Notes under the pieces: generated by a model
Told to the model about the DNA's origin: nothing
Databases searched by the model: none
What the model saw: only the letters and a program-made list of their open reading frames with translations
Translations under genes and position numbers: made by a program
Assembly (NCBI RefSeq): GCF_001438845.1
Contig: NZ_JQCL01000098.1
Location: forward strand, 1 to 55,120
Direction of reading: 5' to 3'
DNA length: 55,120 bases
From: Lactiplantibacillus xiangfangensis
GTDB lineage: Bacteria > Bacillota > Bacilli > Lactobacillales > Lactobacillaceae
In this document: piece after piece, positions 19,302 to 43,521 of the stretch
Layout of the letters: every line of letters starts with the position of its first letter
Numbering within the stretch: the first letter of the stretch is position 1

Positions 19302-20330
19302 ATGAAAAAATTTATGACCGCATTGACAGGCTTAGTAACAATCGCCACAATCGGTGCGACGGTTACGGTACCAACTACTGGGATTACCGCAAATGCCGCA
19401 ACTAAGACGACGAAGAAGGTTACTAGTCCAAGCTTGAAGGTCAGTGCCATCTATAATAACTCTAAGACCATCACCGGGACGGCAACTAAGAGTTCTAAAA
19501 TTACGGTTAAAGCAACTAAGCATGCTAAGAAGAACTTAGGTTCTGCAACGGCTGCAAAGAACGGGAAGTACACGGTTAAACTTGCTAAGAAATTAAAGAC
19601 TAACAGCAATGTTTATGTCTATGCAACTAACCCAAAGACCAAAGCTTACTACTACGAAATTATTCGGGTTCAATCCGCTGCTCAAAAAGCTGCCGCAAAG
19701 AAGGCCGCAGCTAAGAAAGCTGCTGCCAAGAAGGCCGCAGCCAAGAAAGCCGCAGCTAAGAAGGCTGCCGCAAAGAAAGCCGCAGCTAAAAAGGCCGCAG
19801 CCAAGAAAGCTGCCGCAAAGAAAGCCGCAGCTAAAAAGGCCGCAGCTAAGAAGGCTGCCGCAAAGAAAGCTGCCGCAAAGAAGGCCGCAGCCAAGAAAGC
19901 TGCCGCAAAGAAGGCTGCTGCCAAGAAAGCCGCAGCCAAGAAAGCTGCCGCTAAAAAGGCCGCAGCTAAGAAAGCTGCCGCTAAGAAGTTTGATATCAAA
20001 GCCCCAGCCGGTACTTGGAAGTCAAATACGGCTAAGAAGTACAGCCAAGTTTGGTCATTCAGCGCCAAAAAAGGCTTCAACCAAAAACTTTACAAGAATG
20101 ACAAAAAAGTTAAGACCTTAGTTTCATATGCTAGCTACAAAGCAGCTGCAACTAAGACAGCCAATGTTTGGAAGTTAACTTATAAGCCTAGTGGTTCAAA
20201 GAAGAGTAGCACTGTTTACATGCGTTACACTTCAGCTAAGAAGTTCAAGCTTGTTAACGCTAAGAACAAGGTCGTTGCTACTAAAGCCGGCGTTGCCCCA
20301 GCAGCAAAGTGGAGTTTCACTCAAAAATAA
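19302..20330 (+). CDS. Secreted protein with 20 tandem AAAKK repeats
   Basis: A 342-residue protein with a signal peptide (cleavage near ITANA, about residue 31). About residues 42-125 form a domain like the Ig-like module of bacterial adhesins ([15 protein letters not shown] pattern). Residues 130-229 are exactly 20 copies of AAAKK, encoded by 20 units of 15 bp (19689-19988) with mixed synonymous codons. A C-terminal domain of about 110 residues follows that I do not recognise ([17 protein letters not shown] start, KWSFTQK end). The repeat should form a long cationic helix able to bind teichoic acid or nucleic acid. AAGGGG precedes the ATG. Confidence 0.8.
19689..19988 (+). repeat. Coding tandem repeat, 20 x 15 bp
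   Basis: Twenty in-frame 15-bp units encode AAAKK. Codons vary (GCT/GCC/GCA, AAG/AAA), so units are similar but not identical. The length is an exact multiple of the unit and any gain or loss would keep the frame. Confidence 0.95.
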
Positions 20331-25079: not shown

Positions 25080-25242
25080 TATTTTCAACTCCAATTAAGA
25101 TGATGCTTTATTATAGCATTAGTCGAGTTACGCCAAAGACCGGAATCAAACGTGAGATGAATTTTTTGGTGCAAAGCCTTGCATTGAAGTAACTGTAAGG
25201 GACTATAGTAAGGTGGTAAATAAAGTATTGGAGGAATTATTG

Positions 25243-26283
25243 ATGAAAACAGCAGTCTTCGTAGAACCCGGTAAAATGGAAGTTCGTGAGTTACCAAAAG
25301 CTGAAATTAAGAAACCCACGGATGCGGTTTTAAAAATTGTCCGGGCCTGTGTTTGTGGCTCAGATTTATGGTGGTATCGTGGAATTTCTAAAAGACAACA
25401 GCCATCCGCCGTTGGTCATGAAGCAATTGGGGTTGTTGAAAGTGTCGGTGCGGAAGTCACCAACGTTAAACCCGGCGACTTTGTAATTGCGCCGTTTACG
25501 CACGGATGTGGGCACTGTGCTGCTTGTTTAGCGGGCTTTGACGGTGACTGTGTCAATAATGATGATGATGAAATCGTTGGCTATCAAGGAGAGTATTTAC
25601 GGTTTACTAACGCTAACTGGGCGTTAGTGAAAGTTCCTGGTCAACCTAGCGACTATAGCGACGCACAATTGAACGATCTGTTAACGTTGGCGGACGTGAT
25701 GGCGACTGGTTACCACGCTGCCACGACGGCGGAAGTCAAGGCTGGCGATACCGTGGTTGTGATGGGCGATGGTGCCGTTGGGTTATGTGGTGTTATTTCT
25801 GCGAAGTTATTAGGGGCTAAGCGGATCATTGCCATGAGCCGTCACGCTGACCGGCAGGCATTAGCCCGTGAATTTGGCGCAACCGACGTTGTTGCTGAAC
25901 GTGGCGACGAAGCCGTAAAGAAGGTCTTTGCGATGACGGATGGCGCTGGGGCCGATGCGGTTCTAGAATGTGTTGGAACCGAACAATCAGTTGATACGGC
26001 GGTTAAAGTCGGGCGTCCTGGTGCGGTGGTTGGCCGGGTTGGTGTACCACAAAAAGCGGAAATGAATACGAATAATTTATTCTGGCGAAATATCGGTCTT
26101 CGCGGCGGGATTGCTTCGGTGACGAGTGACGACCACAACGTCTTGTTAGACGCCGTGCTCAATGGAACGATTCACCCGGGTAAGGTGTTCACAAAGCGAT
26201 TTGATTTAGCCCACGTTCAGCAGGCCTATGAAGCCATGGATAAGCGGGAAGCTATCAAGTCATTGTTGGTTATTAGTGACTAG
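25243..26283 (+). CDS. Zinc-dependent alcohol dehydrogenase family protein
   Basis: A 346-residue medium-chain dehydrogenase. Catalytic zinc ligands are in VCGSDLWWYRG (Cys) and GHEAIG (His, Glu). The structural-zinc loop is complete (GCGHCAACLAGFDGDC). The Rossmann motif GDGAVGLCG at about 177 is followed by SRHADR, where Ser/Arg rather than Asp at the end of the second strand hints at NADP. It probably oxidises or reduces a small alcohol or aldehyde. The ATG at 25243 is chosen because TTGGAGGAATT lies just upstream. Confidence 0.88.
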   Translation: MKTAVFVEPGKMEVRELPKAEIKKPTDAVLKIVRACVCGSDLWWYRGISKRQQPSAVGHEAIGVVESVGAEVTNVKPGDFVIAPFTHGCGHCAACLAGFDGDCVNNDDDEIVGYQGEYLRFTNANWALVKVPGQPSDYSDAQLNDLLTLADVMATGYHAATTAEVKAGDTVVVMGDGAVGLCGVISAKLLGAKRIIAMSRHADRQALAREFGATDVVAERGDEAVKKVFAMTDGAGADAVLECVGTEQSVDTAVKVGRPGAVVGRVGVPQKAEMNTNNLFWRNIGLRGGIASVTSDDHNVLLDAVLNGTIHPGKVFTKRFDLAHVQQAYEAMDKREAIKSLLVISD

Positions 26284-26292
26284 CTAAAGTTT

Positions 26293-26592
26293 GAAAGTTA
26301 AATTTAGGAATTGATTACTGTTGTATCAGTATTTAGACTAATACAAATGAGTTAGTCCGGTTGCCGCTGATAACATGCGGTTATCCAAATCACAATAGTA
26401 AATCTGTTTTGAGCGCAGTCGGGTAGTCTTGGTGTGCTGTGACGGCAAGATTGGCAGGTGTTTCTTATCTGCCAATCTTGCGGGGCAATTCAAAGACGTG
26501 GGCTATCGGCTTTGAATTGAGGGAGCAGACCGTACTTCGGCTACGACCATCCCCCATAGCACACCGAGGCTACTCGACGGAGCAAATAAGCG
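26293..26592. repeat. Structured repeat element, copy A (module 2 only)
   Basis: Similar along its length to 36455-36915, except that copy B carries an extra internal module. Its core is a multi-branched fold. A 21-position closing stem (26418-26438 with 26558-26578) pairs throughout, 18 Watson-Crick and 3 G-U. A 13-bp perfect hairpin lies at 26445-26457/26469-26481, and a 10-bp hairpin at 26486-26495/26510-26519 has loop ACGTGGGCTATCGG. A conserved CAGACCGT..CTT.GGCT segment precedes the closing arm. No ORF is seen. It lies between convergent genes. It may be a structured RNA or a non-autonomous mobile element. Confidence 0.75.
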
Positions 26593-26605
26593 ATCAATAA
26601 AAAAT

Positions 26606-26650
26606 AAAATGAGTGTCACAAAGCCAAAACGGTTTTGTGACACTCATTTG
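26606..26650. terminator. Bidirectional terminator between adh and the Apf-like gene
   Basis: ATGAGTGTCACAAA pairs with TTTGTGACACTCAT with A/T runs on both sides. Confidence 0.8.
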
Positions 26651-26667
26651 TTATTTGAGAATTAAAT

Positions 26668-27063
26668 TTAATACCAGTGGTGTTGTTGCCAGAACTTCTT
26701 GGCTTTAGTCCAAGAACCGTAACGGCCAGCGACGTAGCTGTTAGCCCGTTTTTCTTGGTTGACTGGTGATAAGTTGCCGTGTAAGTAACCGATTAGTAAT
26801 TGGTAACGGCCATAACATCTGCCGTTACGAGCGGTGTAGCTATAGCCGGATTCACGGTAAGCAATCCATTTTTTAGCAGCGCGCTGCTTTTTCGATAAGC
26901 GCGCATTGATTTTCTTGATTTGTTTAGCCTGACTCTTTTTTGAAGAAGCCTCTGCCGTAATGGCTGTTTGTGGTACAAAACTAGAAGCAACGTTGGCCAC
27001 TAATCCGAAAACACAGCCGATTGCGACCAGTAGTAAAATTGATTTTAATTTAAAATTTTTCAT
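26668..27063 (-). CDS. Apf-like secreted cell-wall protein
   Basis: A 131-residue protein with a signal peptide (KLKSILLLVAIGCVFGLVAN, about 5-24) and a basic linker. Its C-terminal domain of about 65 residues (KKWIAYRESGYSYTAR to RYGSWTKAKKFWQQHHWY) is the compact lysozyme-like domain of aggregation-promoting-factor proteins; the Glu of RESGY is the likely catalytic acid. It should be extracellular and act on peptidoglycan or affect cell shape. The ATG at 27063 is chosen because the signal peptide begins there. The domain is nearly the same as that of the protein at 42784. Confidence 0.85.
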   Translation of the reverse strand: MKNFKLKSILLLVAIGCVFGLVANVASSFVPQTAITAEASSKKSQAKQIKKINARLSKKQRAAKKWIAYRESGYSYTARNGRCYGRYQLLIGYLHGNLSPVNQEKRANSYVAGRYGSWTKAKKFWQQHHWY

Positions 27064-27338
27064 GATGTCCGCCCCGTCTATATAAATTAATGACTCAACA
27101 TCCATAAGAATACACGCATAATGTTGCAGGAGTGTTAACGCGACGTTACTGACTAATTAAATCAATATTTTGCCAATGAAATAATTGTCGCATTTGATTA
27201 AAAATGCTGGTTCACAGTGAAAAATTATATGATTATCATTAAAAATCAATCTACTTATTTTATGGGTCGACTAACCTTAGAGGTACAAGCTGTTTTAATG
27301 GCAGTTTACTAATTTAAAGTGAGTAGTGGGGCGAAAAA

Positions 27339-28823
27339 ATGGCTGAAAAAAATGATGAGAAAATCACCTTAATGGCGTTAGTCATGATGATTTTTACCAC
27401 GGTTTTCGGGTTTGCGAACGGCACGATTGCTTTTTACTTAATGGGGTATTCGTCCATTCTGTTTTATCTAATTGCCGCGGTTTTGTTCTTTATTCCGTTT
27501 GCGTTGATGATGGCGGAATACGGCGCTGCAATCAAGTCGGATAGTAGTGGGATGTACAAGTGGTTGGAGGTCAGTGTGAACGCGCGTTTTGCGTTTGTTG
27601 GGACCTTCATGTGGTTTGCTTCTTACATTATCTGGTTAGTTTCAACGTCTGCAAAGGTGTGGATACCATTCACAACGATCTTCTTCGGGAGTGATCAGAC
27701 ACAAAAGTTTGCACTGATGGGATTAAACGCGACCCAAGTTATCGGGATTTTATCCTGTTTATGGATGGTCTTAGTGACCTTTGTCTCAATCAAAGGGATG
27801 AAGGGCATCGTGCGGATCACGAGTTTAGGTGGGGTCGCCGTCACGAGTTTAACAGCAATTCTATTAGTTGTTTCTGGTATTATTTTAGGCTTAAACCACG
27901 GGCACTTTGCCCAGCCGTTACAACACGTGTTGACTTCACCTAACCCAAGTTACCAACACCCAGTGGGCTTGTTAGGGTTCGCAGTGTTTGCCATCTTTGC
28001 TTACGGTGGTTTGGAAGTGCTCGGTGGGATGGTCGATAAGACTAAGAATCCTGAGAAGACCTTCCCCCGCGGGATTATTATTTCCGCCATCGTGATTACG
28101 ATTGGTTATGGCTTGGGGATCTTCTGCTGGGGAATTAGCACGAACTGGCAAGCCGTTTTGGCCAACCCGACGACCAACATGGGGAATATTAGTTACGTGA
28201 TGATGCGGAACTTAGGTTACGTATTGGGCCAAGCATTAGGATTAAGCACGGTAGCGGCTACCACGATTGGTTTGTGGTTTGCCCGCTACACTGGTTTAGG
28301 GATGTTTCTTGCCTATACCGGAGCCTTCTTCACGTTGACCTATTCACCACTAAAGACACTGATCCTCGGGACACCTAAGGAGTTATGGCCAGCCAAGTTT
28401 ACCAAGCTGAATAAAAATGGCATGCCAAGCTACGCTATGATGGTCCAATGTGCAATCGTCATTGTTATTATTCTGGTTGCGTCGTTTGCGACCGGGGATG
28501 CTTCGGCGTTCTATAACATTTTGACTTTGATGGCGAACGTTTCGATGACCTTGCCATACTTGTTCTTGTTATACGCCTTTCCGAAGTTCAAGGAAAATCA
28601 GTCGATTGCAAAACCATTCGAGGTTTACAAATCGATGATGTGGACCAAAATCATCAGTTGGGTCGTGTTCGTAGTCGTTTTAGGCGCCAACGTCTTTACT
28701 TTGATTCAACCAATCTTAGAGACGGGCAAGATTGCAAATACGATTTGGATGCTCGTTGGACCAATCTTATTCGGCGTTGCCGGTATTATCTGGTACCAAG
28801 TACGTGAACGTCACGTGAACTAA
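27339..28823 (+). CDS. yjeM: APC-family amino acid permease, YjeM-like
   Basis: A 494-residue protein with about twelve membrane segments. The N-terminal third (MIFTTVFGFANG, YLMGYSSILFYLIAA, FIPFALMMAEYGAA, FMWFASYIIWLVSTSAKVW) closely follows the E. coli YjeM sequence as I recall it, within the glutamate/GABA-antiporter-like branch of the APC superfamily. The substrate is unknown. It stands alone: the neighbour upstream is divergent and a family terminator follows. The ribosome site is weak (GTGGGGCG). Confidence 0.85.
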   Translation: MAEKNDEKITLMALVMMIFTTVFGFANGTIAFYLMGYSSILFYLIAAVLFFIPFALMMAEYGAAIKSDSSGMYKWLEVSVNARFAFVGTFMWFASYIIWLVSTSAKVWIPFTTIFFGSDQTQKFALMGLNATQVIGILSCLWMVLVTFVSIKGMKGIVRITSLGGVAVTSLTAILLVVSGIILGLNHGHFAQPLQHVLTSPNPSYQHPVGLLGFAVFAIFAYGGLEVLGGMVDKTKNPEKTFPRGIIISAIVITIGYGLGIFCWGISTNWQAVLANPTTNMGNISYVMMRNLGYVLGQALGLSTVAATTIGLWFARYTGLGMFLAYTGAFFTLTYSPLKTLILGTPKELWPAKFTKLNKNGMPSYAMMVQCAIVIVIILVASFATGDASAFYNILTLMANVSMTLPYLFLLYAFPKFKENQSIAKPFEVYKSMMWTKIISWVVFVVVLGANVFTLIQPILETGKIANTIWMLVGPILFGVAGIIWYQVRERHVN

Positions 28824-28882
28824 ATACTGAATTAAGCGGAGCAAGCTACCTTTTGGCACATGTTTTACCCATAAGAATAGTG

Positions 28883-28925
28883 AAAAGTCGTTCAGAAGTG
28901 TTAAATATTTCTGAACGACTTTTTT
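28883..28925 (+). terminator. Terminator with TTCAGAA core (family copy d)
   Basis: AAAAGTCGTTCAGAA pairs with TTCTGAACGACTTTT, followed by TT. The preceding box CAAGCTACCTTTTGGCACAT (28844-28863) is shared with the leftward copy at 46 kb. Confidence 0.8.
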
Positions 28926-28954
28926 GGTGGAATTAGTTTCAGGTAAAACTTATG

Positions 28955-28982
28955 TTGACATTTTTTGACCGTACGATATAAC
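28955..28982 (+). promoter_or_regulatory. Promoter of the LPQTDE surface protein gene
   Basis: TTGACA (28955-28960) and TATAAC (28977-28982), 16-bp spacer, 36 bp before the ATG. Confidence 0.65.
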
Positions 28983-29018
28983 TAAGGTATAAGTCAAAAA
29001 TCTAGGAGGAGATTTTTT

Positions 29019-31415
29019 ATGAAGAATGTAACAAAGGTTGTGACGGGGATTGCGACCGTTGCGGGGGCCCTTTCGTTAGGAAACACTAAGGTGGCCCAAG
29101 CGGATGCAACGACGCAGGCAAATCAGCCAGCGACAAACACGGAAATGAAAACGGATTCTAACACGGTTGAAGCCGTTAAAGAATCGGGAACAACGGTAAA
29201 AGAAGCCGTTAAAACGACGAAGGCTAATATTAAAGATACGGTTGCGGACCAGAAGACGGCCGGTGAGTCGTTAGAATGGGCAAAACAAAACGTTGCGGAT
29301 GCAACTCCTGAAAACGTTCAAAAGAATCAGGATTCACAAGCTCAGGTCAGCGCAAAGATCGTTGATGACCAGGCTGCTGAGAAAACGGCTGAAGATGCGC
29401 TAGCGAACGGGAAACAAGCTCAACAACAAGCGCAAGCTGATGCCGATACGGCTGATCAAAACGTTGCCAAACAACAAACAGCCGTTGATCAGGCGCAAAA
29501 AAATAGCGATGATAAACAAGCGACGGTTAACGCTGATCAACAAAAGTTGACGGATGAACAGGCAGCCAAGGACGCCGCCGAAAAACGGACCCAAACCAAC
29601 GCACAGGATACAGAAGCTGCACAAGCAAAGGTTGACCAGGCGAAGGATGCGGTGACGGCTAAGCAAGCCGAACAAACCACGGCTCAAGCAAACGTGGACG
29701 CGGCTAACAAAGCGGCGCAACCAGCCAAGGATGCGCTGACTGCGGCGCAAAAAGCCCAGCAAAGTGCGCAAGCAGCGGTGGATGCGACCGAAGCTAAAAT
29801 CAACGCTGCAACGGCGACGACTGCTGAGAAGAACACTATTACGTTGGCACCGGGAATCAACAACGCGTTGTTTGACACCTATGACCAGGCAAGTGATGCT
29901 AATAAAGCGGCTGTAACGGCCTCAACTCAGGCTGTCCTGGGAAAGACGAGTGCAATTGCTTCTAATAAGTACCAGTCTAACGCTGCGGATGCAGCTGTGA
30001 CTGTTTCCAATTTGGATAACTTGACCGGGGCGCAACAACAAGAATTGACCCTCTTTGCCGCTAACTTGATCAACCAGTTGCGGACACAGATGGGCAACCT
30101 TAAAGTCGCGGTCACTGCGGATTCGTTGAAGTTTGCTAACGCCGTTGCGAAGCGCTACGTGGCGGATCAGTGGTCATGGAAGGGTCATGACGTTGCCGGA
30201 ATTGAAGCGGTGGCTGCAACGTTTGGTTTGGATAGCACGGGTAATTACTACGAAAACTTAAGTAACGGTTATCTAGCCGATGCAACGACCATGGATGACC
30301 TTAAACAAGGAATTTATAATACCGTCTTAGGGATGGTTGCGGATGACGAGGATTCAGGTTTCGGCCATGCGGATTCTTTAACAGGGCATAATGGTGGTAC
30401 AGAATATAATATTAATGATCAACAGTACCTGGGGATTGCCGTTGACTCAATGGGTCAAGTGCATATCTTAATGGTTATTGATAATCCAGCATATATTACA
30501 ACCCCTGGTAAATTCAACATGACGGATACCATTAATTTGACGCCTAGCGCGACGACGAATACCGATATTGCCGCGTTAAATGCCCAGTTAGTAACTCAAA
30601 AGGCGACCTTAGCCGCTGCAAAGCAGGACGTGGCTGCAAAACAAGGGCCAGTCACACAGGCGCAAGCGAAACAGAATGATGCCCAAAAGGCATTGGACCA
30701 AGTTAACGCGGACCTAACGAAGCTAAACGCCCAGTTAACGGCGGCGCAAAACCAATTGACGCAACTTAAGCAACAGCAAGTAACGGATACCGCTACGTTG
30801 AAGAACGCACCGGCTGAAATTGCGGCGTTACAAGCTAAACTAGCTGATGATATTCAGGCGTTGAAAGACGCCCAACCCGCATTAGTTGATGCCCAAGCAA
30901 GTTTGAAAGCTAGCCAAGCCGTGGCTGCCCAAAAACACGCGACGTTAGACGCTGCTAAGGCCAACGTGGCTCAACTCACGGATGCGTTAGCCACAGCGCA
31001 AGCAACGACCAAAAATGACACTGCAATTTTAGAGTCGTTGTCATTGCAAGCCTATAACTATGACAATGCTGACCAGATCTTAGCAGCTGTTCAAGCTATC
31101 TACGACCAAGTCGGTGTTAACTTGGCTACGTTGCAAGCTTACCTGACTGAATTACAAGCTGCTGAAGGGGATAGCGTTCGCGTCAGTCAGTCGGCTAATG
31201 GTCAAACGACGATGCAGTTAGCGCACCAAGCTAACCGGGTGAACGTGACCTTACCAGCTGTAAAAGCGACTGGGGTACAGGCTGACCGTTTAGGCAATCA
31301 AGCGACGTTGCCACAAACTGACGAGCAGAGTGCGGCACCAATCAGTTTATTGGGCGTTGCGCTATTAGGCCTAGTTGGATTAGGGTACGCAGGATTACGG
31401 CGGAAGTTTCAATAG
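29019..31415 (+). CDS. LPXTG-anchored surface protein with SEC10/PgrA domain
   Basis: A 798-residue sortase substrate. It has a signal peptide (about 1-29), a long Gln/Ala-rich coiled coil (about 110-265), and a globular SEC10/PgrA surface-exclusion domain (about 335-495, from QQELTLFAANLINQLR through VADQWSWKGHD to YLGIAVDSMGQVHILMVI). A second coiled coil (about 515-670) leads to the sorting signal LPQTDE, a hydrophobic span and RRKFQ. LPQTxE is the form preferred by L. plantarum sortase. SEC10/PgrA domains occur in cell-contact proteins of Gram-positives; no conjugation genes lie nearby. AGGAGG precedes the ATG. Confidence 0.93.
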   Translation: MKNVTKVVTGIATVAGALSLGNTKVAQADATTQANQPATNTEMKTDSNTVEAVKESGTTVKEAVKTTKANIKDTVADQKTAGESLEWAKQNVADATPENVQKNQDSQAQVSAKIVDDQAAEKTAEDALANGKQAQQQAQADADTADQNVAKQQTAVDQAQKNSDDKQATVNADQQKLTDEQAAKDAAEKRTQTNAQDTEAAQAKVDQAKDAVTAKQAEQTTAQANVDAANKAAQPAKDALTAAQKAQQSAQAAVDATEAKINAATATTAEKNTITLAPGINNALFDTYDQASDANKAAVTASTQAVLGKTSAIASNKYQSNAADAAVTVSNLDNLTGAQQQELTLFAANLINQLRTQMGNLKVAVTADSLKFANAVAKRYVADQWSWKGHDVAGIEAVAATFGLDSTGNYYENLSNGYLADATTMDDLKQGIYNTVLGMVADDEDSGFGHADSLTGHNGGTEYNINDQQYLGIAVDSMGQVHILMVIDNPAYITTPGKFNMTDTINLTPSATTNTDIAALNAQLVTQKATLAAAKQDVAAKQGPVTQAQAKQNDAQKALDQVNADLTKLNAQLTAAQNQLTQLKQQQVTDTATLKNAPAEIAALQAKLADDIQALKDAQPALVDAQASLKASQAVAAQKHATLDAAKANVAQLTDALATAQATTKNDTAILESLSLQAYNYDNADQILAAVQAIYDQVGVNLATLQAYLTELQAAEGDSVRVSQSANGQTTMQLAHQANRVNVTLPAVKATGVQADRLGNQATLPQTDEQSAAPISLLGVALLGLVGLGYAGLRRKFQ

Positions 31416-31473
31416 AATTAAATAATTAACAAAAACGGTTCGCAAGTGGTCGTTTTCTAAACTACCTTGCGAT

Positions 31474-31521
31474 GGGGCGGTCTTCAGAAAGTAATTCAAT
31501 TTCTGAAGACCGTCCCTTTTT
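31474..31521 (+). terminator. Terminator with TTCAGAAA core (family copy e)
   Basis: GGGGCGGTCTTCAGAAA pairs with TTTCTGAAGACCGTCCC, followed by T5. The outer stem is GC-rich, unlike other copies, while the core is unchanged. Confidence 0.8.
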
Positions 31522-31682
31522 GAACGGTCAATAATTAGGATGGTAGGGTTTAAAAGTAATCCTAGTTTTATTTACGAATATTAGTTCAGCGATATTAATT
31601 GTTAAAAACCGTTATATATTGATTGTGGAACCCGTTAATTTCGGGTACGCTTAGGGAAGATTAGTTTGAGGGAGGAATGGGA

Positions 31683-33407
31683 ATGAAAGTGCTGATGCCA
31701 TACTTTAAACGGTATCACGTAGACGTCTGGGTAGCGATGCTATCCGTGATCATCTTAGTTTTTGCCACCTTATGGCAACCGCGATTACTGCAGGTGGTGA
31801 TGGAAGCCATTATTAAGGACGACCAGCAGACGGTCTTTCGCGAAGGGTTGATGTTACTCGGTTTAGCCGTACTTGGTATTGCCGGTGGGATCGTCAATAC
31901 GGTCTATTCCGCAAAGGTTGCGCTAGGTGTGGCCACGGATTTACGTGCCGACCTATACGCTAAGATTCAGTCATTTGCGTACGCGGACGTTGAAAAGTTT
32001 TCAGCGTCTAACTTAGTTGTTCGGATGACAAACGATATTAATCAAGTTCAACAAATTGTGATGGCGGGTTTCCAACAGATTACTCGGATTCCATTGCTAT
32101 TTATTGGGGCGTTGATTCTTGCCATGGTGACGATGCCGGAACAGTGGTGGGTCATTATTTTGATGATGGCCGTCATCTTACTAGCGTCGTGGATCGCTGT
32201 TAAGCGGATGACCAAATATTTTGGTGAAACCCAACAAGATATTGAAAACGTCAATACGGTTGCGCGTGAAAACTTGATGGGGATTCGCGTGGTTAAATCG
32301 TTCGTTCAAGAACCAAACGAAATTAAGAAATTCTCGACGGCATCGGACCAACTGACCGCCGTGACGGCTAAAATCGGCTACTGGTTCTCAATTTTAATGC
32401 CAATCTTCTTCTTAACGGCGAACTTAGCCGTTGGGATGGCGGTTTATTTAGTTGGGCAAAACATTACGACCCACCCTGGTTACTTAGCTGCCATTACGAG
32501 TTTTATTTCTTATTTGATGCAAATCTTATACGCCGTTATTAACGGGGGCTTTTTGATGACCTTTGCGTCACGGGCCTTCATCTCAATCGGCCGGATTGAT
32601 GAAGTGTTAGCAACACAGCCAAGTATGACGTACGTGGAAGATGACAACGAAGAACCACTGGCTGGCGATATCACCTTTGAACACGTCACGTTTACGTATC
32701 CGGACGACGACCAACCAACGCTGAAGGACGTTAGTTTTAAGATTGCGGCTGGCTCCATGCTCGGCATCGTTGGGGCGACCGGCTCCGGTAAAACGACGTT
32801 GGCGCAGTTGATTGCGCGGTTGTATGATCCGGATAGTGGTCACATTAAGATTGGTGGCGTAGATGTCCGGCAGATTCCAGAAAAGGCGTTGCGTGCTACC
32901 GTTGCGTACGTGCTCCAACGGTCAACGCTCTTTTCGGGAACGATTTCTGACAACTTAAGACAGGTACGTCCAGACGCAGAAGTTAGTCACATGCGCTGGG
33001 CCGCAAACGTTGCGCAGGCATCTGAGTTTATCGAACGTTTGCCACAAAACTACGATGCGCCGGTTGAAGAACGGTCACAAAACTTTTCTGGTGGTCAAAA
33101 GCAACGATTGGCGATTACCCGGGGCGTGATTGCCAGTCCGGAGATCTTGATTTTAGATGACGCGACGTCCGCACTGGATGCACGCTCTGAAAAACTGGTT
33201 CAGGAAGCCTTGGACCGTGACTTGAAGTCCACGACGACCGTGGTCATTGCTGAAAAGATCGCGTCGATCATTCGAGCGGATCAAATTTTAGTCTTGGACG
33301 ATGGCCAAATTAGTGGGAGTGGGACCCACCGTGAATTATTGAAAAATAATGCGATTTATCAAGCCATTTATCAAACGCAAAAGGCACGTGAGGAGGGGAT
33401 TCAATGA
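31683..33407 (+). CDS. Heterodimeric ABC exporter, degenerate half (LmrC-like)
   Basis: A 574-residue half-transporter with six membrane helices and one nucleotide-binding domain: Walker A GATGSGKTT, signature FSGGQKQR and Walker B ILILDDATSALD. The catalytic Glu after Walker B is Asp, and the switch His is replaced (VIAEKIASI), so this half's own ATP site should be poorly active. This matches LmrC/BmrC-type subunits. The signature SGGQ is intact and should complete the active site of the partner. The ATG at 31683 has GGAGGA at 31671-31676. ATGA overlap with the next gene. Confidence 0.92.
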   Translation: MKVLMPYFKRYHVDVWVAMLSVIILVFATLWQPRLLQVVMEAIIKDDQQTVFREGLMLLGLAVLGIAGGIVNTVYSAKVALGVATDLRADLYAKIQSFAYADVEKFSASNLVVRMTNDINQVQQIVMAGFQQITRIPLLFIGALILAMVTMPEQWWVIILMMAVILLASWIAVKRMTKYFGETQQDIENVNTVARENLMGIRVVKSFVQEPNEIKKFSTASDQLTAVTAKIGYWFSILMPIFFLTANLAVGMAVYLVGQNITTHPGYLAAITSFISYLMQILYAVINGGFLMTFASRAFISIGRIDEVLATQPSMTYVEDDNEEPLAGDITFEHVTFTYPDDDQPTLKDVSFKIAAGSMLGIVGATGSGKTTLAQLIARLYDPDSGHIKIGGVDVRQIPEKALRATVAYVLQRSTLFSGTISDNLRQVRPDAEVSHMRWAANVAQASEFIERLPQNYDAPVEERSQNFSGGQKQRLAITRGVIASPEILILDDATSALDARSEKLVQEALDRDLKSTTTVVIAEKIASIIRADQILVLDDGQISGSGTHRELLKNNAIYQAIYQTQKAREEGIQ

Positions 33408-35185
33408 ACGACTTACGAAATGCCGGCAAGTATTACTGGCACTACTTAAAGAAATATTGGCGGGGCTTTATTTTAAGCACGTTATTGATTGCCTTCTCAA
33501 CGTGGTGCATTGTGATTGCGCCGACTTATTTAGGGCGTGCCGTTGAAGAACTGACCACTTACTTAGGTCAGTGGACGAACACGGCGACGCGGGCGCACGC
33601 AAGTTTAGGGACGTTTAACCACACGTTAGTGATTTACATTTTACTTTACGTTGGCGACGCAGCGTCCATCTTTATCTCGAGTTTAATTTTAGCCCGGGTA
33701 ACTGCCTATTCGACGGGGACGATGCGCGTTGGTCTGTTTCGGAAGATGCAACGAATGAAAGTTCAATACTTCGATACGCACAGTGATGGCGATATTTTGG
33801 CTCGCTTTACATCGGACCTAGATAATATTTTTAATGCGATGAACCAGGCGCTGCTGGAAATCTTACTGGCCGTGGCCCAATTTGTTGGGTTGCTGATCGT
33901 GATGTTCAATCAAAACGTGACGATGGCGTGGGTGACCATGGCTTCAACGCCGGTTGCGTTAATTATTGCGGCGTTAGTTATGCGTAAAGCCGGAACCGCA
34001 GTCAATCAACAACAAGATGACATTGGCCGTTTGAACGGGTACATTAACGAACAGATTACCGGTCAAAAAGTGTTGATTACTAACGGTTTGCAACACGATT
34101 CGTTACGTGGCTTTACAAGCTATAACGCGAAAGTTCGACAATCAGCACTGACTGGGCAGATCTGGTCAGGAATTTTGAACCCGTTGATGCAAGGTATGTC
34201 ACTATTAAACACCGCCATTGTCATCTTCTTCGGTTCGTGGTTAGCGTTAAATGGCAGTATGTCCAAAGGGGCCGCCTTAGCGTTAGTCGTTGTGTTCGTC
34301 AACTATGCGCAACAGTACTATCAACCAATTATGTCGTTAACGAGTCTTTACAGTATGATTCAATTAGCCATTACTGGCGCACGCCGGGTCGACGAGGTTC
34401 GTAACCAACCGGATGAAGTTAATCCAGTTGACGGTGGCCAACCAGATGGCATTCAAGACGAATTGAAGATTGATGACGTGCACTTTAGCTATAATCCGGG
34501 TAAAGAAATTTTGCACGGGGTCACGATCAATGTCCACCGGGGTGAAATGGTTGCGTTAGTTGGGCCGACTGGTTCCGGTAAGACAACCGTGATGAACTTG
34601 TTGAACCGCTTCTACGACGTGGACAGTGGGAAAATCACCTTCGATGGTACGGATATTCGGACGTTTGATTTGAACAGCTTGCGGCAAAACGTGGGGATCG
34701 TGCTACAAGAACCTCAATTATTTACCGGAACGATTGCGGATAATATTCGCTACGGTGAACCAACGGCCAGCATGGGACGGGTCATTGACGCCGCTAAGCA
34801 GGCTAATATTCATGATTTTATTGAGGGGTTACCGGATAAATATGAGACACAAGTTTCCGATGAACAGAGTATCTTTTCAGCCGGCCAGAAGCAACTCATG
34901 TCCATTGCGCGGACGATTTTAACGAATCCCCGCTTGTTAATTTTGGATGAAGCCACTTCTAACGTGGATACAGTGACGGAAGCCAAGATTCAGGCCGCCA
35001 TGGATAACGTGATCCAGGGCCGGACGAGTTTTGTTATTGCGCACCGGTTGAAGACGATTCTGAATGCTGATAAAATTGTCGTCTTGAAGGACGGCGCCAT
35101 TATTGAGCAGGGGAATCACGATGCGTTACTCAAAGAAAACGGTTTTTATGCGGAATTATATCGGAATCAAATGGTATTTGAATAA
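33404..35185 (+). CDS. Heterodimeric ABC exporter, catalytic half (LmrD-like)
   Basis: A 593-residue half-transporter. Walker A GPTGSGKTT, Walker B LLILDEATSNVD with catalytic Glu and the switch His (IAHRLKTI) are all intact, while the signature is altered to FSAGQKQ. It is thus complementary to the upstream protein: one consensus site (this Walker pair with the partner's SGGQ) and one degenerate site. Such pairs export amphipathic drugs or lipids. The start overlaps the upstream stop. The gene for the AbrB-DUF998 protein follows after 19 bp. Confidence 0.93.
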   Translation: MNDLRNAGKYYWHYLKKYWRGFILSTLLIAFSTWCIVIAPTYLGRAVEELTTYLGQWTNTATRAHASLGTFNHTLVIYILLYVGDAASIFISSLILARVTAYSTGTMRVGLFRKMQRMKVQYFDTHSDGDILARFTSDLDNIFNAMNQALLEILLAVAQFVGLLIVMFNQNVTMAWVTMASTPVALIIAALVMRKAGTAVNQQQDDIGRLNGYINEQITGQKVLITNGLQHDSLRGFTSYNAKVRQSALTGQIWSGILNPLMQGMSLLNTAIVIFFGSWLALNGSMSKGAALALVVVFVNYAQQYYQPIMSLTSLYSMIQLAITGARRVDEVRNQPDEVNPVDGGQPDGIQDELKIDDVHFSYNPGKEILHGVTINVHRGEMVALVGPTGSGKTTVMNLLNRFYDVDSGKITFDGTDIRTFDLNSLRQNVGIVLQEPQLFTGTIADNIRYGEPTASMGRVIDAAKQANIHDFIEGLPDKYETQVSDEQSIFSAGQKQLMSIARTILTNPRLLILDEATSNVDTVTEAKIQAAMDNVIQGRTSFVIAHRLKTILNADKIVVLKDGAIIEQGNHDALLKENGFYAELYRNQMVFE

Positions 35186-35204
35186 TTAAGTAAGGGGTAG
35201 GTTA

Positions 35205-36386
35205 ATGGCAGGGCAGGCAAAAAAGGTCAGGGTGACGATCCCCGTCTCCATGTTGGAGCGCGCGGGACTGAATCCGGATGACCAGTTACAAGTGAAAGTT
35301 CGTAACGACACCTTGGTGTTGGATAAAGCGGATCAGGCACAACCCGAGCGATTATGGTACTTCATTATTTGGCCATTGATCATCGCGGTAGCTTCAAGCC
35401 TTGCTAGTTACGGCTACTGGGTTTATCGTGGCTTGAAACCGATTGGACTAACCGGTTCGGAATCGGTCGCTAGTTTAACGATTGTGACCGGGGTCGTTAC
35501 CGGCGCAATCCTCTTCATTGGCTTTTTCTTGAAAACACGCAATGATCCGGATAACCGGTTCTCACGCCAGATTTATTGGCGAAGCTTTCCCGTAATTACC
35601 GTGGCGTTTGTCATGATTTTGGCCTTTGCCTTGGTGGGTGCTTTTTGGGTGCTAGGGCTGTTATTTCCAAAAGTGGTTTTTGACCGCTTTACGGCATTGC
35701 TACTCGTAGCCGTGTTTACCTACTTTGCAAACGCATTTATGATTGGAGCTGCGTTGACCATTAATGCCCGGACACTTTCGACAATTTTAACGGTCGTCAT
35801 TGTGAGTGGTTGCGTGATTTCCATGGCGGCTAACGGTCAGCGGCGCTGGTGGCAACATAACCTGAGCTTTTTAGGGACTGAGAGTGCGCGGAACGCTTGG
35901 CAGTTCAATCTGACGTTGATCTTTTCGGCGTTGTTGATGGTCGTGTTGATCGACTACCTCTTTGTTTCGCTGAGCCGGATTTATCCGCGTAATTGGCGCA
36001 CATCGACGTTGCGGGTGTTATTAACGTTAACGGCAATTGACTTTGGGGCCGTCGGGATGTTTCCAAACAACACCGATTTACATTGGTTGCACGATGCGGT
36101 GGCCGGCGGTTTAGTCACGTTACTCGTCCTACTAATCGTTGGTGTTCGGTGGCTACTGCCCGGTGTAACCAAGGACTTCTTGTGGATCTCGTACGGGATT
36201 GGGGTCGGGTTACTGATCCTGAACTTTGGTTTTCGTTGGTTTCGGTTCCCGTCACTAACGGCGTTTGAGATTCAGGCATTTGCCATCTCATTTGGCTGGT
36301 TGTTGTTGTTATTTGGCCAGCTACAAGATCTTGTGAATGAGGGGAGCACACCGCTAGCGGTGGAGCTTGAACAGGATGTCGATTAA
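35205..36386 (+). CDS. AbrB/MazE-like N-terminus fused to DUF998 membrane domain
   Basis: A 393-residue protein. Residues 1-46 resemble a SpoVT/AbrB swapped-hairpin domain (KKVRVTIPVSMLERAGLNPD DQLQVKV, then TLVLDKA). From about 50 onward there are about ten membrane helices; the latter half matches DUF998, including NLSFLGTESARNAW, MFPNNTDLHWLHDAVAGG and a closing helix pair. It lies 19 bp after the ABC exporter genes and probably shares their transcript. The AbrB part would be cytoplasmic; whether it binds DNA from the membrane is unknown. Confidence 0.75.
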   Translation: MAGQAKKVRVTIPVSMLERAGLNPDDQLQVKVRNDTLVLDKADQAQPERLWYFIIWPLIIAVASSLASYGYWVYRGLKPIGLTGSESVASLTIVTGVVTGAILFIGFFLKTRNDPDNRFSRQIYWRSFPVITVAFVMILAFALVGAFWVLGLLFPKVVFDRFTALLLVAVFTYFANAFMIGAALTINARTLSTILTVVIVSGCVISMAANGQRRWWQHNLSFLGTESARNAWQFNLTLIFSALLMVVLIDYLFVSLSRIYPRNWRTSTLRVLLTLTAIDFGAVGMFPNNTDLHWLHDAVAGGLVTLLVLLIVGVRWLLPGVTKDFLWISYGIGVGLLILNFGFRWFRFPSLTAFEIQAFAISFGWLLLLFGQLQDLVNEGSTPLAVELEQDVD

Positions 36387-36401
36387 GTCAGTATCAAAAA
36401 T

Positions 36402-36444
36402 ATTAGCGCTGCAAAACTAGATCGTAGTTTGCAGCGCTAATTTG
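36402..36444 (+). terminator. Terminator of the ABC exporter/DUF998 operon
   Basis: ATTAGCGCTGCAAAACTA pairs with TAGTTTGCAGCGCTAAT over 17 positions; the T-run after it is short. Confidence 0.65.
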
Positions 36445-36454
36445 TATCTTACTA

Positions 36455-36915
36455 AAAGTTAAATGTGAGGATTAGTTACTGTTGTATCAGTATCTAGGTC
36501 AAAAAAATAGCTATTTGTAAACTATTCCGGTTGCCACTGATGACATGCGGTCGTGGGACCGGGGCTAGCCTTAGGAGCGGTCTAGCCCCTCGCCCAGAGC
36601 AATTGCAAAAAGCGCAATTGTTCTGAACCGTCCGTGGTCTAAGGCCGGAAGAATCACCGGTCAAAGACCACCTTCACGACCGATATCATCAGTGGCAACC
36701 TCCGATTATCCGACGGTAATAACAATAGTAAGACTGTTTTGAGCGCAGTCGGGCAGAATTGGTATGCTGTGTCGGCAAGATTGGCGGGCGAATTTTACGC
36801 CAATTTTGCGGGGCACTTCAAAGACGTGGGTTATCAGCTTTGAAGTGAAGTTTCAGACCGTCCTTTGGCTGGAACCGTCCCCCATAGCACCCAATTCTGC
36901 CTGACGGAGCGACTA
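36455..36915. repeat. Structured repeat element, copy B (modules 1 and 2)
   Basis: Homologous to 26293-26592 but with an added module. Module 1 is closed by a 15-bp perfect stem (36529-36543 with 36686-36700) continued by 8 bp (36548-36555 with 36675-36682). It holds three inner hairpins (GGGGCTAG/CTAGCCCC; CAGAGCAATTGC/GCAATTGTTCTG; GTGGTCT/AGACCAC). Module 2 is closed by 36748-36762 with 36892-36906 (15 positions, one G-U) and repeats the two inner hairpins of copy A (36775-36786/36798-36809; 36814-36823/36838-36847). Base changes relative to copy A occur in pairs. It fills most of the gap between the DUF998 and antiporter genes. Confidence 0.75.
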
Positions 36916-37113
36916 ATTTAGAAATAATAATTATTACTGGTGCAATATGGACAATAACGTTAGGACTTCTATGTCTTTAGTATCTAAACCACACTAGTCT
37001 TAAGCAACTTTTTTTGATATGAGGTTATAACTATGCGTTTTTAATCATCAAATGGTATAAATATAAGGGAATGAATTTTAATTGAACGAAAAAACGTTAG
37101 GGGGTGGACGCGG
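36916..37113. other. Upstream region of the antiporter gene
   Basis: AT-rich, with no ORF. It must contain the antiporter promoter, but no -35/-10 pair is clear enough to call. Confidence 0.4.
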
Positions 37114-42783: not shown

Positions 42784-43521
42784 TTAGTACCAGTTGTGAC
42801 GTAACCAGAAGCGTTTAGCGTTAGTCCATGAACCATAACGACCCGCAACGTACTTGTTAGCAGCCTTTTCTTGGTTGACTGGTGAGTAGTTGCCGTGTAA
42901 GTAAGCTGTCAATAATTGGTAACGACCATAACAACGACCGTTACGAGCGGTGTAGCTGTAACGGGATTCGTGGTAGGCAATCCAATTTTTAGCAGAACGT
43001 TGTGCTTTAGAGAGCTTAGCGTTAATCTTGGCAATTTGTTGGCTTTGTGTCAACTTTTTCTTCTTTTTAGCCTTTTTAGCGGCTTTCTTTAGTGCAGCCT
43101 TTTGGGCCTTCTTAGCAGCTGCTTTTTGTGCTTTTTTGGCCGCTTTCTTAGCGGCTGCTTTAGCCTTTTTAGCGGCTTTCTTTAATGCAGCTTTTTGTGC
43201 TTTTTTGGCCGCTTTCTTAGCCTTTTTAGCAGCTTTCTTTAATGCAGCCTTCTTAGCGGATTTTTTGCTAACTTTCTTAGCTTTTTTAGTTGTCTTCTTT
43301 TTAGAGACGGCTTTTTTAACAACTTTTTTAGTGGCTACTTCAGGAGCCGCCTTTTTGGTGACCTTAGCCGTTTTAGTGGTATTACTTGCAACTACGGATG
43401 AAGCCTCAGCTTCGGTAGTGGTTGCGGCTTGGACAGCCACGTTAGCAGTTAATCCTAAACCACAACTAATGACTAATAAACTAATGATCGATTTTATCTT
43501 AGATTTTTTGTTTTTTTGCAT
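42784..43521 (-). CDS. Apf-like secreted protein with a long Lys/Ala-rich linker
   Basis: A 245-residue protein: signal peptide (about 8-32), then about 120 residues of Lys/Ala-rich low complexity (KKAAKKAKKAAKKAQKAALK and similar). It ends in the same lysozyme-like Apf domain (about 180-245; NWIAYHESRYSYTAR to RYGSWTNAKRFWLRHNWY) as the protein at 26668. The domain should act on peptidoglycan or affect cell shape; the cationic linker may hold the protein to anionic wall polymers. Confidence 0.85.
   Translation of the reverse strand: MQKNKKSKIKSIISLLVISCGLGLTANVAVQAATTTEAEASSVVASNTTKTAKVTKKAAPEVATKKVVKKAVSKKKTTKKAKKVSKKSAKKAALKKAAKKAKKAAKKAQKAALKKAAKKAKAAAKKAAKKAQKAAAKKAQKAALKKAAKKAKKKKKLTQSQQIAKINAKLSKAQRSAKNWIAYHESRYSYTARNGRCYGRYQLLTAYLHGNYSPVNQEKAANKYVAGRYGSWTNAKRFWLRHNWY

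Follow-up and report, generated by a model that had tools for sequence, protein, structure and literature searches.

Conserved multi-hairpin fold in a short MITE-like repeat family of Lactobacillaceae

A 55,120-nt stretch of the Lactiplantibacillus xiangfangensis genome (contig NZ_JQCL01000098.1, one of the 103 contigs of a 2.99-Mb genome; hereafter the window) carries two intergenic copies, A and B, of a dispersed repeat. It is strongly supported that the domain D2 of this repeat is an evolutionarily conserved fold residing within a MITE-like element. On balance, we favour the reading that the copies represent a short, non-autonomous MITE-like family of the Lactobacillaceae, whose outward-reading RNA domains would serve as tolerated 3' ends of neighbouring transcripts. 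An earlier note on the same DNA had recognized the repeat and had set a function as RNA against that of a mobile element; the features of both occur together. The non-autonomous mobile element, one of the alternatives named there, gains support from end repeats, 7-bp target duplications and dispersal. These end repeats and duplications, a second structured domain, the copy number, a bias towards convergent genes and the family-wide distribution were absent from the earlier description. Among the papers listed in literature searches, none described this element.

The repeat unit reported for the window is real but larger than originally described, as copy B is a full-length element of 529 bp. 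Leader, core and tail had been said to be shared between the copies. This holds for leader and core (84% over three ungapped blocks) but not for the tail of copy A. Of the second domain, D1, copy A retains a single stem arm. No ORF of 80 aa lies within either copy. The parts of both copies are listed in Table 1.

Table 1 Coordinates of the parts of copies A and B in the window
Feature	Position	Strand	Remark
Copy A, truncated element with left end, leader, D1 remnant and intact D2	26284..26589	+	right end not recognised
Copy A, left terminal repeat CTAAAGTTTGAAAGTTAAATTTAGG	26284..26308	+	adjoins stop codon of ORF 25213-26283
Copy A, D1 remnant (one arm of D1 closing stem)	26353..26381	-	
Copy A, D2 domain	26408..26584	+	191 bits
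Copy A, D2 stem P1	26418-26441/26555-26578	+	
Copy A, D2 hairpin P2	26445-26457/26469-26481	+	
Copy A, D2 stem P1b	26482-26485/26551-26554	+	
Copy A, D2 hairpin P3	26486-26495/26510-26519	+	loop ACGTGGGCTATCGG
Copy A, D2 hairpin P4	26521-26528/26541-26548	+	loop ACCGTACTTCGG
Copy B, left target duplication TATCTTA	36445..36451	.	
Copy B, full-length 529-bp element	36452..36980	+	
Copy B, left terminal repeat CTAAAAGTTAAATGTGAGGATTAG	36452..36475	+	
Copy B, D1 domain	36528..36700	-	structured strand is minus
Copy B, gap between the facing 5' sides of D1 and D2	36701..36737	.	
Copy B, D2 domain	36738..36911	+	170.5 bits
Copy B, right terminal repeat	36964..36980	-	GACTTCTATGTCTTTAG on plus strand
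Copy B, right target duplication TATCTAA	36981..36987	.	6/7 match to left copy

The core had been proposed to fold into a long closing stem with at least two inner hairpins, and it proves to be a domain of about 177 nt, D2, in which a long stem surrounds three hairpins. A 24-bp P1 is followed by hairpin P2 and by a short P1b (GGGG/CCCC) that encloses hairpins P3 and P4. The loops of the latter two read ACGTGGGYTRTCGG (P3) and ACCGNNCTNTGG (P4), their letters are conserved as well, and both hairpins share a conserved AGAC...GGCT. In copy A, all 21 positions of 26418-26438 pair with 26558-26578 as proposed (18 Watson-Crick and 3 G-U pairs), and the equivalent stem of copy B (from 36748 and 36891) pairs over 15 of 15 positions, one of them G-U. 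The hairpin CAATTCAAAG/CTTTGAATTG is replaced by CACTTCAAAG/CTTTGAAGTG between the copies, exactly as claimed. Little weight can be given to the joint loop change from C..G to T..A that had also been put forward, as 39 of the 40 aligned copies have G in the 3' column. Both cores fold far more stably than shuffled sequences: z is -9.6 for copy A, whose stability none of 200 shuffles reached, and -11.4 for copy B, likewise unmatched in 100 shuffles.

The compensated structure is more than a coincidence between two copies. It is seen in an alignment of 40 of 41 cores from the same genome (L020, which carries an internal deletion, was excluded), where 95.4% of 2571 cells pair in a 65-pair model and 32 of the 65 pairs show double changes. 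Covariation amounts to 0.261, a value that none of 500 shuffles attains (0.119 on shuffling), and sliding the partners lowers it to 0.059 or less, a comparison in which the actual pairing is favoured as the structure was taken from one aligned sequence. Conservation in the full alignment is highest in the core (0.81-0.92), about 0.6-0.76 in leader and tail and about 0.4-0.5 in the surroundings. The same fold was recovered across genera, with a compensated double change in 51 of 60 predicted pairs; this alignment, which was not structure-guided, comprised the two window copies and 41 sequences from 6 genera (43 in total), and the 41 lean to the structure of model R1 because all were found with it.

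Full copies contain a second branched domain, D1, which lies upstream of D2, is homologous to it and is arranged head to head with it, such that the 5' sides of both domains face the gap and their 3' sides point outwards. The consensus fold of D1 is stronger on the minus strand (-81 versus -60 kcal/mol, 31 copies), and the genome has a second subfamily whose D1 is itself recognised by the D2 model, again on the minus strand. Among 63 distinct matches in 40 related loci, from which opposite-strand echoes had been removed, 20 of 21 neighbouring matches no more than 700 nt apart follow the order minus-then-plus (all 10 within the genus and 10 of the 11 from other genera).

A structure that acts as RNA tolerates G-U but not A-C pairs; single-stranded DNA likewise tolerates G-T. 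On the plus strand of D2, 145 G-U pairs face 44 A-C pairs in the hand-set structure. With consensus folding, which itself prefers G-U so that part of the excess is built in, G-U and A-C counts are 161 and 27 on the plus strand of D2 and 34 and 67 on its minus strand, while D1 yields 119 and 37 on the minus strand and a weaker excess (58 and 41) when folded on the plus strand. Matches in other genomes behave like D2 (130 and 45 on plus, 45 and 81 on minus). As G-U exceeds A-C on the plus strand of D2 and on the minus strand of D1, each structure appears to act as one outward-reading strand. The earlier conclusion that paired change reflects selection on structure is thus upheld for the structure of one strand, and this strand is probably RNA in both domains.

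Copies in this genome start with CTAAAGGTTGAAA and finish in its inverse; the end repeats are imperfect. Ends of this type occur at 59 sites of the genome when up to 2 mismatches are allowed, versus 8 for a reversed control. Target duplication was assessed for the 19 of 77 D2 copies with both ends recognised, the other 58 lacking one or both at the limits set. In these 19, flanking 7-mers match at 0.707 compared with 0.395 ± 0.04 in shuffles; at flank lengths of 4-6 and 8-10 the match deviates from the shuffles by no more than 1.6 sd, and at length 3 by 2.7 sd. Terminal inverted repeats, target duplication, short length, many copies and no coding capacity, the features by which MITEs are recognized, are all present. 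Among the derivatives, L116 has D1 only, L122-L124 have bodies that are incomplete or rearranged, and L117 is a remnant of 40 bp that consists of end sequence alone. Ends, target duplications and dispersal together point to movement of the element. Inspection of selected end sites of this genome, of unpaired ends and of recurrent neighbour proteins revealed neither a transposase nor an autonomous copy, a strict end pattern run over 21 genomes of the genus retrieved no autonomous copy and matched only 4 of them, and no mobile gene recurred beside the elements. Neither of two candidate loci inspected was a clean empty site: the L148 versus L128 locus looks like a deletion because about 14 nt of element end are retained, and that of L151 versus L121 is rearranged. 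Copy A had no match among plasmids and phages, and a search of viral contigs with one loop pattern gave 0 stretches.

No ORF >600 nt is overlapped by any of the 72 classified D2 copies, placement being based on simple ORF calls with shorter ORFs over the element ignored. The 94 gene pairs that bear an element divide into 46 convergent, 43 tandem and 5 divergent ones, compared with 23, 169 and 63 among 255 pairs without an element, and the enrichment for convergent pairs (Fisher p about 4e-15) is somewhat inflated because the control pairs stem from the same loci, and some of these loci overlap. Between tandem genes, D2 shows no orientation bias (13 sense, 13 antisense). The convergent bias may also reflect plain promoter avoidance.

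The reading that we favour would combine these properties as follows. A transposase encoded elsewhere would mobilise the element in trans. Transcription of neighbouring genes entering from either side would run in sense through an extended RNA fold, and this domain could provide a 3' end that is defined, stable or processed. Because such an end would be offered to either side, insertion between convergent genes would be harmless or even mildly useful. A host protein or RNase probably binds the conserved AGAC...GGCT hairpins P3 and P4, and the fold would be kept under selection in the source copies that spread and more weakly in resident ones. A MITE with two strand-specific, outward-reading RNA domains would offer a direct test of why bacteria tolerate folded repeats between converging genes.

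The family extends well beyond the window. R1 yielded 119 matches in the same genome, a lower bound as 150 of 819 candidates were scored, and these correspond to about 106 distinct places once 13 opposite-strand echoes are removed. In wider genome sets, with few candidates scored per genome so that the tallies are lower bounds, R1 matched 17 of 60 genomes (the genome itself, 15 of 20 others of the genus and one of another genus), 73 of 397 Lactobacillaceae genomes (8 of the 40 sampled genera) and 12 of 395 genomes of the order, namely 11 of the family and one weak match outside it (58 bits); the genome of the window is counted in each. An exact loop pattern occurs in 34 stretches of named genomes, a set that may omit near relatives of the genome studied here, and these derive only from Lactiplantibacillus pingfangensis and an uncultured Lactobacillus MAG. 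That the fold had not been recognised as a known RNA class agrees with Rfam 15, which has 0 matches at gathering score in the window. At E<=10, positions 26200-37000 give 11 matches, all below gathering score, to snoRNA, sRNA, microRNA and cis-element models, and a scan of 20 related loci at gathering score identified just one tRNA, outside the elements. A structured RNA family in many Lactobacillaceae with compensatory changes on this scale and no Rfam 15 match would greatly enlarge known bacterial RNA.

The closest resemblance is to the L. plantarum supermotifs (LPSMs; Wels et al. 2009, as described in PMC5643018, the only paper naming them in our literature search), and the window family could be a strict member of these and hence already known, a reading to which we assign less than an even chance. 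In the summary given there, LPSMs are multi-copy elements of 800-1000 nt with a large cruciform-like structure; they are reported to be transcribed as stable RNA and to be absent from other Lactobacillus species. The window element is likewise multi-copy and intergenic with a large cruciform-like structure. With 881-967 bp and 30-54-bp inverted ends, seven elements of Lactiplantibacillus genome G019, which were picked as long ones, match the published LPSM size. R1 matches 14 of 20 loci from G003, G005, G016 and G019 (E 5e-11 to 1.5e-5), and one domain of the G019-type elements corresponds to the model. DNA comparison detected the L. plantarum-type element in all 4 genomes tried, including G003 and G005 in which R1 had scored zero, and a shorter form of it resides on L. 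plantarum plasmids; 24 plasmid records match this element type, and in 22 of these the match spans most of the query. However, the window copies do not exceed 529 bp, short of the length described for LPSMs, they differ from LPSMs as described in their ends, the P4 hairpin and the target duplication, and the occurrence of relatives across 8 of the 40 genera sampled contrasts with the reported restriction of LPSMs to L. plantarum. We think that LPSMs are relatives of the window family, which may tie them to a wider mobile family.

Other known repeats are analogues in kind. The bcr1-bcr18 repeats of the Bacillus cereus group are described as MITE-like and intergenic, and some have a conserved RNA structure and are present in transcripts (PMC3446304). 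REP/BIME sequences, as characterized in PMC3733652, are palindromes of 20-40 bp with a GTAG or CGTC tag. They often occur as close, oppositely oriented pairs where the neighbouring genes are convergent or in tandem, and the argument from G-T pairing for RNA has been made for them before. The window element is set apart from the bcr repeats, as far as their description goes, by a head-to-head pair of homologous multi-hairpin domains, one on each strand, and from REP/BIME in size and form by its end repeats, the 7-bp duplications and branched domains of about 177 nt. Alu-like SINEs and other folded-RNA parasites resemble it as dispersed elements with a conserved fold; the inverted ends and 7-bp target duplications suggest a DNA transposase rather than reverse transcription.

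The changes within individual copies bear on whether the fold matters to residents at all. In a parsimony tree of 136 copies (73 from this genome, 43 from sister genome G004 and 20 from G009), transitions that keep a pair outnumber those that break it on internal (68/24) and on terminal branches (179/98), and among 226 double changes those preserving the pair number 205, against 21 others. Changes shared between copies favour pairing, with kept/broken ratios of 83/34 in D2, 42/30 in D1 and 55/26 across genera, while private changes are about neutral (5/8, 10/5 and 3/3, respectively). Seven orthologous pairs between this genome and G004, with flanks about 90-95% identical, gave 20 kept, 12 broken and 3 double changes in what is a small test: 4 of 9 candidates had been dropped for a D2 identity <0.85, and of a second set of 5, L150/L040 (0.77) was dropped, two pairs were duplicates of the first set and two were added. 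We read this as mixed selection per copy, strong in lineages that spread and weaker in resident copies. A purely selfish MITE, in which the fold, as RNA or single-stranded DNA, would serve movement or recognition only while residents decay neutrally, would account for the neutral singletons alongside shared changes that favour pairing, for the decayed derivatives L116 and L117 and for the layout retained in the diverged copies that G009 has of its own (20 copies shown). We nevertheless consider it unlikely, since terminal branches and orthologous pairs lean to pairing and many copies without recognised ends retain D2.

The paired changes might also have arisen at the DNA level, by template switching between inverted arms or by copy conversion, with no selection on RNA. 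Every stem is an inverted repeat, and at some loci shared with the sister genome the D2 modules are just 62-69% identical (L153/L080, L235/L085, L237/L014), so that modules seem to be replaced. Such an origin predicts equal numbers of G-T and A-C, yet G-T is about threefold higher and on opposite strands for D1 and D2, and conservation extends to the loops of P3 and P4; we regard it as improbable. Just as little credence is given to an RNA-dependent DNA transposon, in which the two outward RNAs would be parts of the mobility apparatus and LPSMs its longer relatives. If it were true, the AGAC...GGCT hairpins would bind a transposase or host factor, and movement of an element with terminal inverted repeats would need a folded RNA pair. 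A divergent pair of trans-acting small RNA genes with promoters in the gap would suit domains whose 5' sides face each other, but is very doubtful, as the gap measures just 15-16 nt in the relatives L050, L067 and L054 and promoter scans of copies A and B found nothing above chance. A terminator scan of both window copies picked out one 19-bp hairpin, located just outside copy A.

At three loci shared by two sister genomes (L153/L080, L235/L085 and L237/L014), D2, the structured core domain of the repeat element, is just 62-69% identical, whereas the flanks are approximately 89-97% identical. Judged by this difference in identity, the D2 modules appear to have been swapped in place at these loci. 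In addition, the same two genes flank the element in the genome under study (L024) and in the related genome G009 (L162), with D2 identity amounting to 72%. This shared position may reflect either an old common insertion or a repeatedly used target. At a further locus, L044, a run of N covers a portion of the element, in its left part.

Two hairpins of D2, P3 and P4, enclose different loops in an identical AGAC...GGCT frame, which suggests a putative repeated protein- or RNA-binding motif.

The L. plantarum-type element is matched by 24 plasmid records, 18 from Lactiplantibacillus and six from Ligilactobacillus, and may therefore move between genera.

Positions of plasmid-borne elements and of repeat arrays
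Feature	Sequence	Positions	Relation to ORF
L. plantarum-type element	plasmid locus L210	4001-4306	
L. plantarum-type element	plasmid locus L211		
L. plantarum-type element	plasmid locus L212		
L. plantarum-type element	plasmid locus L213		
Array of 55-nt repeats	window	43066-43372	overlapped by ORF 42784-43521
Array of 15-bp units	window	19627-20046	within ORF 19302-20330

Elsewhere in the window, ORFs 26668-27105 and 42784-43521 have a 257-nt stretch in common (76% identity); neither had a match in a Pfam search. The start of ORF 19302-20330 matches Pfam Big_6, a bacterial Ig domain, and the product looks like a repeat-rich surface protein.
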